Shown in pieces: positions 22,495 to 26,616 of a stretch of 64,000 bases of DNA. Made by a program: the position numbers and the translations under genes. The stretch is from Rhizobium gallicum bv. gallicum R602sp (GTDB taxonomy: Bacteria > Pseudomonadota > Alphaproteobacteria > Rhizobiales > Rhizobiaceae). Numbering within the stretch: position 1 is the stretch's first letter; every line of letters starts with the position of its first letter. The stretch is from assembly GCF_000816845.1 (NCBI RefSeq), contig NZ_CP006880.1, forward strand, positions 1,116,001 through 1,180,000, in the 5' to 3' direction. Under the pieces are notes generated by a model. It saw nothing but the letters and a program-made list of their open reading frames with translations. It was not told the origin of the DNA and searched no databases.

Positions 22495-22519
22495 GGAATA
22501 AAGTCGGTCTCTTCACGTT
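22495..22519 (+). promoter_or_regulatory. ECF-type promoter P1 (GGAATA-N15-CGTT)
   Basis: GGAATA at 22495-22500 and CGTT at 22516-22519 with exactly 15 bases between, 29 bases before the ATG of the DUF6065-like gene. It is identical in its fixed bases and spacing to the elements at 23734-23758 and 25123-25147. The layout is like alphaproteobacterial ECF promoters (GGAAC-N16/17-CGTT class). Confidence 0.7.
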
Positions 22520-22548
22520 CTACCCGATCATTGGACCGGAGAACGAGC

Positions 22549-23262
22549 ATGTTTCATTTTCGACAGAAAGACCCAGACAAGATTCATTTCCTTTGCCAGC
22601 CGGAAGATCTTGAGGTCATCGCGCCACCAGTGCCTGCCAAGTCGGTTCTGCCGGAGTGGTATCGCAAGCTGCCGGTGGTCGATGCAAAGCATCAGTCGAC
22701 CACAGATAGCGGTCTGACCATTAAACGCTGCATGCCGTTTCTCGACGCTATGATGACCGGCTGGATCTTGCCGCTGGCAGCGACGGTACGGCTTGAGATC
22801 AAGGAGGACGGCAGGAGCGTCGAGGCGGGCTGGGAGTTCGACCGGGTCATGGTCAGTAATCACGGCGTCCATCAGGTCGCGGGCAATCCGAAAGAGCCCG
22901 GCCCGCCCTGCAAGTTTCATAATTACTGGTCGATCCGCACGCCACCTGGATGGAGTTGCCTCTTCGTGCCGCCGCTCAACCGGCCAGCGCAGCCGTTCGA
23001 ATGCGTGGCGGGTATCGTCGACACCGACACTTACACGGCTCATATCCACTTTCCGTTTTTTGCGACGGCGCCCGACGGACTCTATGTCATCGAGAAGGGA
23101 ACGCCGCTTGTGCAGGTGATCCCGATTCACCGCAATCGCGCGGCAATCAATGCGGAAATTCGCCGCGAAACCCGGGAAGAGGCAATGAACCGCCAGACAA
23201 TCTACCGCAACACCATTGCCGGCCACGGGTGGTACCGCAAGGGCGCACGCGCTGCCCGCTGA
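22549..23262 (+). CDS. DUF6065-like protein
   Basis: A 237-residue soluble protein. It begins with a segment around IHFLCQPEDLEVIAPPVPAK and then VLPEWYRKLP, a pattern I associate with the DUF6065 family of unknown function, though this match is from memory and untested. The middle is rich in aromatic residues (YWSIRTPPGWSCLFVPPLN), and the C-terminal part is charged (EIRRETREEAMNRQT). No signal peptide or membrane segment is visible. An ATG with the ECF-type promoter P1 directly upstream fixes the start; the longer open frame back to 22333 is ignored. A strong terminator follows at 23288-23310. Likely a member of the local ECF regulon. Confidence 0.7.
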   Translation: MFHFRQKDPDKIHFLCQPEDLEVIAPPVPAKSVLPEWYRKLPVVDAKHQSTTDSGLTIKRCMPFLDAMMTGWILPLAATVRLEIKEDGRSVEAGWEFDRVMVSNHGVHQVAGNPKEPGPPCKFHNYWSIRTPPGWSCLFVPPLNRPAQPFECVAGIVDTDTYTAHIHFPFFATAPDGLYVIEKGTPLVQVIPIHRNRAAINAEIRRETREEAMNRQTIYRNTIAGHGWYRKGARAAR

Positions 23263-23287
23263 AATTTCAGCGAGCGAGCAACGAGAC

Positions 23288-23310
23288 GGGGGCCGGATAG
23301 TCCGGCCCCC
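23288..23310. terminator. Strong bidirectional terminator
   Basis: A perfect 10-bp GC-rich stem, GGGGGCCGGA/TCCGGCCCCC, with a TAG loop. It lies between the convergent DUF6065-like and Ser/Asn-repeat genes. Confidence 0.8.
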
Positions 23311-23331
23311 GTTCCTTATCCTGCGCTGTCA

Positions 23332-23682
23332 TTAACGCCAGGAGCGCCAATGGTGACGCGAATGATACGAGCCATCAGAACCGCTCGAGCTCGAATTGGA
23401 AGAACTGTTCGAAGAGGAATTCGAAGAACGGTTCGACGATGAGTTCGAGTTAGAATTCGATGAACTGTTCGAAGACGAATTGGAGTTCGAATTGCTTGAT
23501 GAATTCGAACTCGAATTTGACGAGCTATTGCCGGCAACGACGATTGCACCGTCGCTCTGGCTGCTCGACTGTTTCCCGCCGTCAGGTTGTATCGTCGTGT
23601 ATTCCTTGGCCTGTACGGCAGAACCTGCCAGCGCCGCGACGCCGGCGATAAGGGCCGTGCTCAGTTTCCAGGATTTTTTCAT
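23332..23682 (-). CDS. Small secreted Ser/Asn-repeat protein
   Basis: A 116-residue protein with a clear signal peptide (KKSWKLSTALIAGVAALAG, cleavage likely after AVQA at residue 25). Residues 52-100 are almost only Ser and Asn in SSSN/SNSN units, written in repeats of codons that give TTCGAA-like DNA. The C-terminus is basic and aromatic (YHSRHHWRSWR). I recognise no family. ATG at 23682 has GGAG eight bases upstream; the open frame extending to 24309 is an artefact of the overlapping anti-sigma gene. Its promoter P2 matches the ECF-type motif. A flexible, polar, low-complexity exported linker or surface protein is plausible; the function is unknown. Confidence 0.75.
   Translation of the reverse strand: MKKSWKLSTALIAGVAALAGSAVQAKEYTTIQPDGGKQSSSQSDGAIVVAGNSSSNSSSNSSSNSNSNSSSNSSSNSNSNSSSNRSSNSSSNSSSNSSSSGSDGSYHSRHHWRSWR
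23386..23530. repeat. Low-complexity Ser/Asn coding repeat
   Basis: Tandem imperfect repeats of TTCGAA, GAATTC and related 6-12 base units that encode the Ser/Asn tract of the secreted protein. The antisense frames read as Glu/Phe-rich nonsense. Confidence 0.75.
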
Positions 23683-23706
23683 GCCAGTTACTCCTTTTGA
23701 AAACAG

Positions 23707-23725
23707 GACCGGCTGCTCCGGTCCG
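23707..23725 (-). terminator. Hairpin with T-run ahead of the Ser/Asn gene
   Basis: A 7-bp stem GGACCGG/CCGGTCC with a five-base loop; on the minus strand it is followed by TGTTTT. It may end the sigma/anti-sigma transcript, or act as an attenuator, since it lies just downstream of promoter P2. Confidence 0.6.
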
Positions 23726-23733
23726 GCAGAGTA

Positions 23734-23758
23734 ACGGGCGGCACAAGGTTCTATTCCC
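23734..23758 (-). promoter_or_regulatory. ECF-type promoter P2 (GGAATA-N15-CGTT)
   Basis: On the minus strand GGAATA is at 23758-23753 and CGTT at 23737-23734, with exactly 15 bases between, 51 bases before the ATG of the Ser/Asn-repeat gene. It lies in the gap after the anti-sigma gene. Confidence 0.7.
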
Positions 23759-23779
23759 GACTTCCGAACGCTTTTAATT

Positions 23780-24559
23780 TTACGCCCCGTCACGGATTTC
23801 GGCGAGCGCCTTCGCCTCTTCGGACGCCTCGATCGGCGGCTTGGCATCAATGGCTGAAAGGTAGGCGTCGAGCGCATCCGTGGATGAAGCCGGCGCATAG
23901 CCGCCGCTGCCGCCAGCAGCAGCCACTGCGAACGCCACGCGCCATTGCTCACCGGACCGGCAGGCGACCGAAACCACGGTCGAGCGGTCGGGCGAATCGA
24001 CTTCGAACTCGCGGCAAAGCGCCTGCGCATTGTCACGGAAGGTTGCGATTGCCCGGAACCGCTGGTTGGAACCGGCCAACTGCCGCTCCTGGCCGGAAAC
24101 AACCGTTGCCAGGGCCTCGTTGAGCGCGGAGGCGCTGACCCCGGCAACCTGAAGGCCGGCCGAGGCAGGCTCTTCGGACTGCGCCAGCCAATACCCGCCC
24201 AATCCACCGAGAATGGCGGTAAGCGACGCGGCGATCGGGGTGAACCAGCGGCGGGCGACGACCTGATCGTTGGCTGTACGTCGCCGGAATGGCAACACGG
24301 ATGCAGCACCCTGATCGGCGGCCTTCTTTTTTGCGATCATGGCTTCGATTGCCTGGGTCAGCTCGGCCGGAACCGGTTCGTCCAAAAGCGGTTCCAGCGC
24401 CGTCTGTGCCGCTGCTCGTGTCTCCAGGAAAAATGCCACGCGGGGGACGAGCTCATCGTCCGTCTCCATGGCACGTTCAATCTCGGCCGCCGTTTTAGGA
24501 TCAAGCTCGCCATCGGCAAAGCGCATCAGTGTCTCATCTGAAAAATCCGTCTTGGTCAT
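23780..24559 (-). CDS. Membrane-anchored anti-sigma factor
   Basis: A 259-residue protein. Residues 1-60 (FSDETLMRFADGELDPKTAAEIERAM) match the anti-sigma N-terminal helical domain without the zinc-binding His/Cys set. A single membrane helix lies at about residues 104-126 (WFTPIAASLTAILGGLGGYWLAQ), and the C-terminal part is extracytoplasmic. It is expected to bind the ECF sigma factor encoded upstream and release it on an envelope signal. Its ATG overlaps the sigma stop (ATGA), so production is translationally coupled. The periplasmic part has no fold I recognise; Cys residues in CREFEV and ACRSGEQW could form a disulphide. Confidence 0.85.
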   Translation of the reverse strand: MTKTDFSDETLMRFADGELDPKTAAEIERAMETDDELVPRVAFFLETRAAAQTALEPLLDEPVPAELTQAIEAMIAKKKAADQGAASVLPFRRRTANDQVVARRWFTPIAASLTAILGGLGGYWLAQSEEPASAGLQVAGVSASALNEALATVVSGQERQLAGSNQRFRAIATFRDNAQALCREFEVDSPDRSTVVSVACRSGEQWRVAFAVAAAGGSGGYAPASSTDALDAYLSAIDAKPPIEASEEAKALAEIRDGA

Positions 24560-25098
24560 GCCTTGGCCTCTTTCGTCTCCTCAGAACGGGTTGTCTCCGC
24601 CGTTATTCCAGCGGCGTCTGCGAGATTTTTTCGTGCTCGGGCCAGGCGGCTCATGACCGTTCCGATTGGAATGGTGAGTATATCGGCTGTCTCGCGGTAG
24701 GAGAGCTCTTCGACGCAGACGAGGATAAGTACCTCGCGTTGTTCGTCTGGAAGATCGGTAATTGCCTCAGCGACGCTCTTGAGCGTCAGTGACGCTTCGA
24801 CAATGCGCTCGCCGGAAGAGCCTGCGATGTCGTGACGCTCTGAAATATCCTCCTGAATGCCTGCCGTCTTCTGCCGGCGGACCTGGTCGATCCAGAGATT
24901 GCGGAGAATGCGGAACATCCAGGCGTCGAAGCGTGTACCGGGTTCGAATCGTTCTGTATTGGCAAGCGCGCGCTCACAAGCCATTTGCACGAGGTCGTCG
25001 GCGATGTCGCGCGTTCCACAGAGCGATATTGCAAATCGCCGCATGTTCGGCAGAAAGGCGATCAGTTGGTCTTCAACGCTCTCCTTCCGCATGGTCAT
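24556..25098 (-). CDS. ECF-family RNA polymerase sigma factor
   Basis: A 180-residue extracytoplasmic-function sigma factor. Region 2 is seen in DIADDLVQMACERAL and RFDAWMFRILRNLWIDQVRRQ (residues ~30-75); region 4 in LPDEQREVLILVCVEELSYRETADILTIPIGTVMSRLARAR (~115-160). No region 3 or extra C-terminal domain is present. ATG at 25098 or 25092 fits the family length; an open extension to 25230 does not. It is divergent from the subtilase gene and coupled to the anti-sigma gene. The probable targets are the three GGAATA-N15-CGTT promoters around it. I see no such motif reading toward its own gene, so autoregulation is not supported by that element. Confidence 0.9.
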   Translation of the reverse strand: MTMRKESVEDQLIAFLPNMRRFAISLCGTRDIADDLVQMACERALANTERFEPGTRFDAWMFRILRNLWIDQVRRQKTAGIQEDISERHDIAGSSGERIVEASLTLKSVAEAITDLPDEQREVLILVCVEELSYRETADILTIPIGTVMSRLARARKNLADAAGITAETTRSEETKEAKA

Positions 25099-25122
25099 GG
25101 TCGATTGGTTCTTCCCTTGATC

Positions 25123-25147
25123 GGAATAACGCGCGGTTAAGCGCGTT
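25123..25147 (+). promoter_or_regulatory. ECF-type promoter P3 (GGAATA-N15-CGTT) with embedded palindrome
   Basis: GGAATA at 25123-25128 and CGTT at 25144-25147, 15 bases apart, 86 bases before the ATG of the subtilase. A perfect inverted repeat AACGCGC (25128-25134)/GCGCGTT (25141-25147) fills the spacer and -10 element and could be an additional operator. Confidence 0.7.
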
Positions 25148-25233
25148 TTCTGGCAATCTATCGTTATTGCCCAGTTACTCCAAGTGATTGGTTCTGCCCG
25201 ATAGACAACCCGCAGCCATTGAGGAGGCATAAA

Positions 25234-26616
25234 ATGCGAGAATGGTTATCGCTGTTTGGACCAAGGACCAAGGGACGCTTTCTTGTGGCTCTTTTGCTTT
25301 CCAGCGGCCTCACGCTTGCTGACGGCTGGCCCGCGGCCGAACTGGTGGGCATAGGATCCGCTCTTGCCGATGACGATGATGGTGGTGATGATGGTGATGA
25401 CGATGGCGATGATCATGGCGGCGGGAGGTCTGATGCCTCCGATTCAGGCGGCAGGAGCCTTTTTAGGATGTTCGGCAATGCGCCGCGCGCGCCGCGGCGC
25501 GCGCGTTCATCGGTTGCCGATTTGCCGATCCAGGACCCCGACGAGATCGTGGGTTCGGGTTTTACTGCGCTACAGCTCGACCAGCTATCGGCAGCCGGTT
25601 TCGAAATCATCGAGCGGCAAGCGCTCTCCGCTGTCAACACAGAAGTGGTAAAGCTGCGCATTCCGTCCAGTCTTGCACTCAATGCTGCGCGAGAGTTGGC
25701 GGCCACCTTGGCGCCGCAAGCCAGGATCGACTTCAATCACTACTATCGGCCGGAGCAGAGCCCCGACCTGCGCTGCGGCACGGCCGATTGCCTTGCGCGG
25801 ACCGTTATAGGCTGGCCGGCGGAGCAGGAAGGAGAGGGAACTTGCGCAAGCGAAGTTGGCATCGGACTGGTCGATACAGCTGTCAATGCCGATCACGGCG
25901 TTTTCGCCGGCAGCAGCATCGAAACCATCCGGCTCGCCGACGATACGCTGCCGGATTCGGGGCAGCAGCATGGAACGGCTGTTGCGGCCCTTCTGGTCGG
26001 GGCGACGACGAGCCGGACGCCGGGGTTGGTACCAGGCGCGACGTTGATCGCTGTCGACCCATTTTATCGGGCGCGACGTCAGGACGATCGCTCGGAGGCC
26101 TATAATCTCGTACGGGCGTTGGACTTGCTGGCTGAGCGTGAGGTCGAGGTCATCAATCTCAGTCTTGCCGGCCCCGCCAATTTGCTGCTCGAAGAGGCTG
26201 TGCGGAGGGTCAGCGAACGCGGCATCATCATCGTTGCCGCCGTCGGCAATGCCGGCCCTAGGTCCGACCCATCCTATCCTGCGGCCTATGAGGAGGTCGT
26301 TGCTGTTACGGCAATCGACCGGAACAAGAACCCTTACAGACGCGCGGGGCGTGGTCAGCACATCGACTTGGCAGCCCCCGGTGTCGCGGTCTGGACTGCT
26401 GCATCCGTCAGCGGTGGGCGAGCGAAAACCGGTACCTCTTTCGCGGCGCCCTTTGTCACCGCGGCAGCCGCGCGGATGAAAGGCGCAAGTCCTGGTCTTG
26501 CCCCCGAGCGCATTCGCGATGCGCTGACGCGAAGCGCGGAAGATCTCGGCGAACCCGGCAAGGATCCGATCTTCGGGTGGGGGCTTTTGAACGCGCGCAC
26601 ACTCTGTGGGGCGTGA
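25234..26616 (+). CDS. Secreted S8 (subtilisin-like) serine protease
   Basis: A 460-residue subtilase. The N-terminus carries a signal or anchor (FLVALLLSSGLTLADGWPAAE, cleavage near ALA-DD). A very acidic Asp/Gly tract follows (about residues 44-65), then a basic patch. The catalytic triad is visible: Asp in GIGLVDTAVNADHG, His in QQHGTAVAALL and Ser in GTSFAAPFVTAAAARM; the oxyanion Asn is in AAVGNAGPRSDP. GAGGAGG six bases before ATG 25234 sets the start. It is divergent from the ECF sigma gene and carries promoter P3. It could process envelope proteins, the Ser/Asn-repeat protein, or the anti-sigma periplasmic domain; none of these is shown. Confidence 0.9.
   Translation: MREWLSLFGPRTKGRFLVALLLSSGLTLADGWPAAELVGIGSALADDDDGGDDGDDDGDDHGGGRSDASDSGGRSLFRMFGNAPRAPRRARSSVADLPIQDPDEIVGSGFTALQLDQLSAAGFEIIERQALSAVNTEVVKLRIPSSLALNAARELAATLAPQARIDFNHYYRPEQSPDLRCGTADCLARTVIGWPAEQEGEGTCASEVGIGLVDTAVNADHGVFAGSSIETIRLADDTLPDSGQQHGTAVAALLVGATTSRTPGLVPGATLIAVDPFYRARRQDDRSEAYNLVRALDLLAEREVEVINLSLAGPANLLLEEAVRRVSERGIIIVAAVGNAGPRSDPSYPAAYEEVVAVTAIDRNKNPYRRAGRGQHIDLAAPGVAVWTAASVSGGRAKTGTSFAAPFVTAAAARMKGASPGLAPERIRDALTRSAEDLGEPGKDPIFGWGLLNARTLCGA

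Follow-up and report, generated by a model that had tools for sequence, protein, structure and literature searches.

Which genes does a sigma factor locus of Rhizobium gallicum bv. gallicum R602sp switch on, and what do their products have to do with one another? The locus lies in a stretch of 64,000 nucleotides (contig NZ_CP006880.1, positions 1,116,001 to 1,180,000), referred to here as the window, and comprises genes for an extracytoplasmic function (ECF) sigma factor, its anti-sigma factor, a subtilase, a Ser/Asn-repeat protein and a DUF6065 protein, four of which are preceded by the exact element GGAATA-N15-CGTT. It very probably represents an envelope-stress circuit of the RpoE6 type (group ECF26), equipped with a two-protein module, consisting of the repeat protein and the DUF6065 protein, and with a protease. 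The sites and their conservation, the targets in trans, the pairing of the two genes and the predicted fold come directly from sequence, and the promoter and regulon are already known from Sinorhizobium meliloti.

The window contains four exact matches to the element, compared to a mean of 0.11 (maximum 2) in 100 shuffles, in agreement with the expectation of about 0.1 chance matches given in a first-pass annotation of the same DNA. Of the three sites listed there, those on the plus strand (22495-22519 and 25123-25147) stand, together with their distances of 29 and 86 bases to the DUF6065 and subtilase genes. The minus-strand site is located at 23757-23733 and not at 23758-23734, 50 rather than 51 bases before the Ser/Asn gene, and a fourth site at 24609-24585 (minus strand), within the sigma gene, had been overlooked (Table 1). 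The three genes named as the output all carry sites; the anti-sigma gene has to be added as a fourth target, and the Ser/Asn and DUF6065 genes are a tightly associated pair, not unrelated outputs. The sigma gene itself is faced by no exact site in the window. The loose pattern GGAA-N16-20-CGTT is not enriched there (15 versus 12.95), so the signal resides in the exact motif. A search of the whole genome (7.31 Mb, four contigs), as had been suggested, yielded 15 exact matches versus 5 for a reversed control motif. Four of them are the window cluster, whereas the other 11 lie mostly within open reading frames (ORFs); judged on a mechanical ORF list, only one (L007) has an ORF start close to its 3′ side (60 residues, 34 bases away).

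The closest characterized counterpart is the RpoE6-EcfR6 locus of S. meliloti pSymA (SMa0139-SMa0148), whose sigma factor (matched at pSymA 78965-79501), DUF6065 protein and protein in the place of the anti-sigma factor are, respectively, 76%, 78% and 66% identical to those of the window. The gene set is the same, including a divergent serine protease/subtilase gene and a Ser/Asn gene between the anti-sigma and DUF6065 genes, although SMa0139 (glyoxylase family) has no counterpart adjoining the window subtilase. The pSymA locus has four exact sites, and the three promoter sequences that PMC6180224 gives in its Table 1 for SMa0142, ecfR6 and SMa0148 occur in it without a mismatch (this and the other papers cited are used as far as their available text extends). 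These three of the four promoters have been mapped and show RpoE6-dependent induction, with log2 changes upon RpoE6 over-production of 4.7, 3.6 and 6.5, and in the printed SMa0142 promoter transcription starts approximately 9 bases after CGTT (PMC6180224). SMa0142 is a serine protease (PMC6180224), and SMa0148 is the DUF6065 gene, since its printed promoter matches the site at the same position in the pSymA locus. That SMa0146, listed as a prominent RpoE6 target, would be the Ser/Asn gene is deduced solely from the order of the genes. In the available text of PMC6180224, SMa0146 and SMa0148 are described as hypothetical, with no mention of a pairing between them, of the repeat or of the fold.

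The compact ECF regulon around a sigma/anti-sigma pair, as proposed in the first-pass annotation, is thus borne out by the same element being printed for three S. meliloti genes. Its further idea, that T at position 5 and A at position 6 set this sigma factor apart, has to be abandoned, since GGAATA is the −35 element of the cross-species ECF26 consensus, with GT at −10 (PMC6180224), and the same exact sites are present at 12 of 14 sigma loci in 13 other genomes. The window sigma factor stands in ECF26 by its apparent orthology to RpoE6, which PMC6180224 places in that group. Sigma regions 2 and 4, a GGAATA/GT promoter and a divergent serine protease gene are all present in the window, and a downstream anti-sigma factor with membrane and periplasmic domains is a putative assignment, drawn from the identity to the corresponding S. 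meliloti protein, an NCBIfam match below cut-off and a membrane span seen by eye. A sigma factor on the R. gallicum plasmid NZ_CP017105 is 97.8% identical. RpoE1 and RpoE4, which belong to the sulfite response (PMC3511301, PMC6180224), share with the window system the ECF26 group, a similar −35 element and an anti-sigma factor with one membrane domain, but differ in their targets (the sorT operon) and in their printed promoters, mostly with CGTC at −10 (SMc02156 has CGTT).

Table 1. Genes and promoter elements of the locus, in window coordinates.
Feature	Position	Strand	Basis
GGAATA-N15-CGTT promoter of DUF6065 gene	22495..22519	+	exact motif, 29 bases to ATG at 22549
DUF6065 protein, 237 residues, predicted dUTPase fold	22549..23262	+	Pfam PF19541 E 4.4e-9; AlphaFold2 (AF2) pLDDT 87.6
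(S-[SN]-S-N)n repeat protein, 116 residues, putative signal peptide (by eye)	23332..23682	-	sequence, relatives
GGAATA-N15-CGTT promoter of repeat-protein gene	23733..23757	-	exact motif, 50 bases to ATG at 23682
Anti-sigma factor, 259 residues, one membrane span (by eye)	23780..24559	-	NCBIfam NF052375 E 6e-8, below its cut-off
ECF sigma factor, RpoE6-type, start codon putative	24556..25098	-	Pfam Sigma70_r2 and r4_2
GGAATA-N15-CGTT promoter of anti-sigma gene	24585..24609	-	exact motif within sigma ORF, 25 bases to ATG at 24559
GGAATA-N15-CGTT promoter of subtilase gene	25123..25147	+	exact motif, 86 bases to ATG at 25234
Subtilase (Peptidase_S8), putative signal peptide (by eye), acidic N-terminal stretch	25234..26616	+	PF00082 E 3.3e-35; start chosen by Shine-Dalgarno-like GAGGAGG at 25221-25227

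Conservation of the element was followed in related loci collected by scanning contigs with an alignment of three DUF6065 sequences (of 142 pattern matches, 100 were confirmed and the best 80 kept). These 80 loci (958,710 bases) contain 220 exact copies, compared to a mean of 1.05 and a maximum of 5 for 40 scrambled motifs. The 11 other CGTT spacers tested (N10-N14 and N16-N21) give 0-2 matches each, and the promoter spacer is rigid at N15. The variant GGAATA-N15-CGTC occurs 28 times; as a separate observation, GGAATA-N19-CGTC has 11 matches, versus 0-4 for the other non-N15 CGTC spacers. The counts bear directly on the notion that the sites are fortuitous or belong to a different sigma factor, for instance the general stress factor RpoE2 (ECF15). 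While 27 S. meliloti RpoE6 targets (67%) do overlap the RpoE2 regulon (PMC6180224), GGAACA-N15-CGTT, one ECF15-like form, is found once in the 80 loci against the 220 copies of the GGAATA form, and SMa0142, ecfR6 and SMa0148 respond to RpoE6, not to RpoE2 (PMC6180224), making this explanation highly improbable.

Together with the window and four plasmid records, the set comprises 85 loci. With a relaxed pattern (N14-16, CGTT or CGTC), 75 of 85 loci have a site before the DUF6065 gene and 51 of 59 have one before the anti-sigma gene; for the subtilase gene the number is 33 of 63, and for the sigma gene 11 of 62 (exact sites in 69, 50, 27 and 4 loci, respectively). The repeat gene is preceded by a site in 73 of 80 loci, 66 of them exact, within a fixed interval of 450 bases on the 5′ side of the repeat.

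The site before the anti-sigma gene is embedded in the coding sequence of the sigma factor. Besides the window, 46 of 61 sigma ORFs contain the whole element, with its GGAATA read as the codons GGA ATA (Gly-Ile). At other places in the 61 ORFs, after subtraction of these 46 sites, GGA is used for 65 of 464 Gly and ATA for 37 of 472 Ile residues; this rarity means that the codon choice at the site fits selection at the DNA level, the comparison being one over related ORFs that carries no probability value. In 39 of 51 loci, the site and the anti-sigma match are 25 bases apart. Among the 62 sigma loci, 50 have the anti-sigma site and 11 a site before the sigma gene, with both present in one (L109) and neither in two (L061 and L107), so that 49 have an anti-sigma site with no sigma-gene site and the two layouts of control are nearly mutually exclusive. 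A RpoE6-dependent promoter inside rpoE6 had already been suggested in PMC6180224, whereas conservation of such a feedback site was found in no paper of the open-access literature searched. The intragenic and pre-sigma layouts offer a natural comparison of negative feedback with self-activation.

No sigma match is present in 23 of the 85 loci. Fourteen of these were followed (the other nine include cut or short contigs), and 13 of the 14 genomes have an RpoE6-type sigma factor elsewhere, 53-77% identical. Of the 14 sigma loci found there, 12 keep exact sites before the divergent subtilase gene and the anti-sigma gene, both exceptions belonging to one genome. Linkage to the sigma gene as the sole reason for the pair staying together was rejected, since 23 of the 85 loci lack a sigma match and all 14 followed have a DUF6065 site. 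In 247 genomes of the family, 33 have the sigma factor at E ≤1e-45, including 12 of the 14 that bear the pair. Besides the window, 29 sigma loci of the family were examined. The 18 from pair-less genomes have the anti-sigma site in all 18 (relaxed pattern), the subtilase in 17 and its site in 15; in the 11 from pair-bearing genomes the corresponding numbers are 9, 8 and 8. The core thus consists of sigma factor, anti-sigma factor and subtilase, with the pair as an accessory output.

The DUF6065 gene and the repeat gene, in turn, are hardly ever found apart. Long Ser/Asn runs are encoded by an ORF in 80 of the 85 loci with a close DUF6065, and a looser filter raises this number to 83, adding a T-S-S-N form (L079), a normal form (L102) and a mixed S/G-N form (L116); in the remaining two (L050 and L052) the contigs end within approximately 310 bases of DUF6065. 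Another locus (L126) also has a Ser/Asn-repeat gene, outside the stricter filter. In 78 of 80 loci, no more than 700 bases separate the two genes (the exact gap varies with the start codon assigned), and their relative orientation is convergent in 40, with DUF6065 first in 27, divergent in 9 and with the repeat gene first in 4. A close DUF6065 (E below 1e-100) is present in 14 of the 247 family genomes, and a further 4 have nothing but a distant form. A repeat-protein profile built from eight sequences matches the same 14 genomes, the lists being compared by reading, and none of the 4; a single-sequence search found 8 genomes, all within the 14. As at most 18 candidates were scored per genome, repeat proteins may be more frequent than these counts suggest. 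Both genes are present twice in one genome (G145), with a pair on each of two contigs, and, G139 apart, the two genes lie within approximately 1.1 kb of each other in the remaining pair-bearing genomes of the family. A class-level DUF6065 search (289 genomes) found, besides the genome of the window, distant forms only, in 9 genomes; in eight class-level genomes the repeat gene was judged on 13-kb loci only. A partner for every DUF6065 was considered and rejected, since none of 15 distant DUF6065 loci (L117-L123 and L177-L184) has a 40-residue stretch of 75% Ser/Asn. These loci have no exact site, and GGAATA-N14-CGTC is present in two (L118 and L123).

In the 80 loci the tetrads of the repeat protein have S in 94% at the first position, S or N (83 and 15.5%) at the second, S in 96% at the third and N at the fourth, the last being fixed by run selection; uninterrupted tetrads number 9-23, with a median of 13. 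A recent tandem repeat of DNA was considered as the origin of the stretch and rejected. In 3,288 unit pairs encoding identical tetrads, 62.9% of bases are shared, compared to 61.7% expected for random synonymous codons; the units are therefore close to synonymous saturation, and the repeat is kept by selection on the protein. In two metagenome-assembled genomes of Bauldia (L076:2432-3013 and L083:5183-5833, minus strand), the repeat protein ends in the peptidoglycan-binding domain PF01471 (E 1.6e-14 and 6e-13), which points to the periplasm. No literature on names of SSSN-type repeats was found in the open PubMed Central (PMC) literature.

The DUF6065 protein is predicted to have a dUTPase fold. 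dUTPases fill all 50 listed PDB matches to the predicted structure (Foldseek E 2.3e-4 among the matches listed), although the window protein matches only PF19541 and not PF00692, which is matched at E up to 1 by 2 of 109 relatives, the best at 0.15. The probability in hhalign against dUTPases (11 of 30 fetched loci used) is under 1%; the top-scoring local alignment, which lacks significance, lines up in register with motifs III-IV of dUTPases. The C-terminal motif V of dUTPases reads RG..GFGS/TG; by eye, neither the window protein nor the consensus sequence of the 109 relatives has it. In comparison with the dUTPase superfamily, motif II is degenerate (by eye) and DUF6065 has two conserved His residues of its own, the conserved positions being R60, H105, H124, N144, T159 and D160. 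The open PMC literature yielded no paper on DUF6065. Relatives are also found in tailed haloarchaeal viruses (records MZ334507, KC117376 and AY190604; L214-L217), with 38-45% identity in the haloviral matches listed; phage records with relatives number 54 in all, the cyanophage relatives being weak. In a metagenomic protein of 331 residues (P0087), most of a near-identical DUF6065 is joined to a C-terminal part resembling the window subtilase, by deletion or by an assembly join.

Such a fold could mean that DUF6065 is an independent nucleotide triphosphate hydrolase and the repeat protein a separate protein of the periplasm or wall, with nothing but regulation in common. The fold itself and the non-significant alignment to motifs III-IV speak for this alternative, as do the viral homologues, adjoined or nearly adjoined by a ribonucleotide reductase or thymidylate synthase gene in all three haloviral loci examined, and the two repeat proteins ending in a peptidoglycan-binding domain. 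However, the host carries a separate canonical dUTPase, inspection by eye reveals no canonical motif II or V, and common regulation would not explain adjacency in four orientations together with the 14-for-14 co-occurrence. Two separate functions retain a substantial probability, somewhat under even. At close to an even chance we tentatively place the proposal that the exported (S-[SN]-S-N)n protein and DUF6065 form an unrecognised two-component system, found here in alphaproteobacteria and mostly under an ECF26 sigma factor, in which a repurposed dUTPase-fold protein would work on or for an envelope Ser-Asn repeat polypeptide. The pairing, the selection on the repeat and the fold seem not to have been described, as they were found in no paper of the open-access literature searched.

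A more specific variant, in the manner of ribosomally synthesized and post-translationally modified peptides (RiPPs), would make the repeat protein a precursor modified by DUF6065 in the cytoplasm and trimmed by the subtilase after export. It would account for the pairing and adjacency, for protein-level selection on a short repeat and for the conserved DUF6065 residues, and the subtilase does resemble the maturation proteases QhpE and PatA, at scores far under the cut-off. Yet this likeness may be that of subtilases in general, with mycosin scoring higher; the occurrence of the subtilase follows that of the sigma factor rather than that of the repeat protein (it is present at 17 of 18 sigma loci from pair-less genomes); and the predicted fold belongs to nucleotide hydrolases, the matches listed including no relative that modifies peptides. 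We consider a RiPP-like pathway unlikely. Bufferins are modified peptides, and the bufferin/MNIO clusters (DUF692; S. meliloti RpoE7 regulon) resemble the window by analogy only, as an ECF-controlled cluster with a DUF692 gene (PMC6180224); the likeness is drawn without comparison of sequence or fold, and the 80 repeat proteins differ in having no Cys in their last 100 residues.

Returning to the RpoE6-type circuit with its two-protein module, the following mechanism may be proposed. The membrane anti-sigma factor would hold the sigma factor until an extracytoplasmic signal, presumably from the envelope, frees it. The free sigma factor would read the element before the anti-sigma gene from within its own gene; since it would raise the anti-sigma factor and not, via the motif, itself, the response should shut itself off. 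It would also activate the divergent exported subtilase and, in some lineages, the exported Ser-Asn repeat protein and the cytoplasmic DUF6065 protein, which may act jointly as one functional module of the output. DUF6065 probably prepares or guards the repeat protein or its precursors in the cytoplasm, or it may prepare a nucleotide-linked substrate used in decorating the repeat polypeptide, whereas the subtilase probably acts on the repeat protein outside.

Several observations weigh against this account. The unique S. meliloti RpoE6 targets gave no response to RpoE2-triggering stresses (PMC6180224), and a dUTPase fold offers no obvious chemistry on a Ser/Asn protein. A site is missing before DUF6065 in 10 of 85 loci and before the repeat gene in 7 of 80, and under the rules used only the 33 of 63 subtilase-bearing loci have one before that gene. 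The pair is absent from 21 of the 33 sigma-bearing family genomes, and 2 of the 14 pair-bearing ones have no sigma factor at E 1e-45. G139 has the DUF6065 and repeat genes on different contigs, and six loci of one lineage (L064, L070, L127-L129 and L132) have the repeat gene directly before DUF6065 with no motif; in three of these (L070, L127 and L129) the end of an OmpR-type response-regulator-like gene lies upstream (by eye), suggesting another control. Finally, shared ancestry affects the counts of presence and absence.

For the RpoE6 branch of ECF26, promoters have been mapped and no function is defined in the available text of PMC6180224, and SMa0142 is among the screened peptidases with normal fixation (PMC8175422). 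A partnership of two genes that persists through rearrangement and through separation from the sigma gene offers a concrete starting point for identifying the product of the RpoE6 stress response, and DUF6065, a family of unknown function reaching into archaeal viruses, now has a predicted fold.

A few further features accompany these loci. An identical stretch of 11 bases (CCAGTTACTCC) is present in the window at 23684-23694, in the ribosome-binding region of the repeat gene, and at 25171-25181, between the sigma and subtilase genes. The window subtilase is followed by a dihydroxyacetone kinase-like gene (by eye). Three related loci (L079, L090 and L107) encode RTX calcium-binding repeat proteins with a GGAATA-N15-CGTT site of their own, which may be further members of the regulon. 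Glycerate-kinase-like genes, only that of L111 checked with Pfam, have the element 13-42 bases upstream (L086, L092, L095, L097, L099, L101, L111, L112 and L115, as well as L104 and L106), and the last two loci also encode small Asp-rich proteins and a transporter, which in L104 is of the citrate/anion family.

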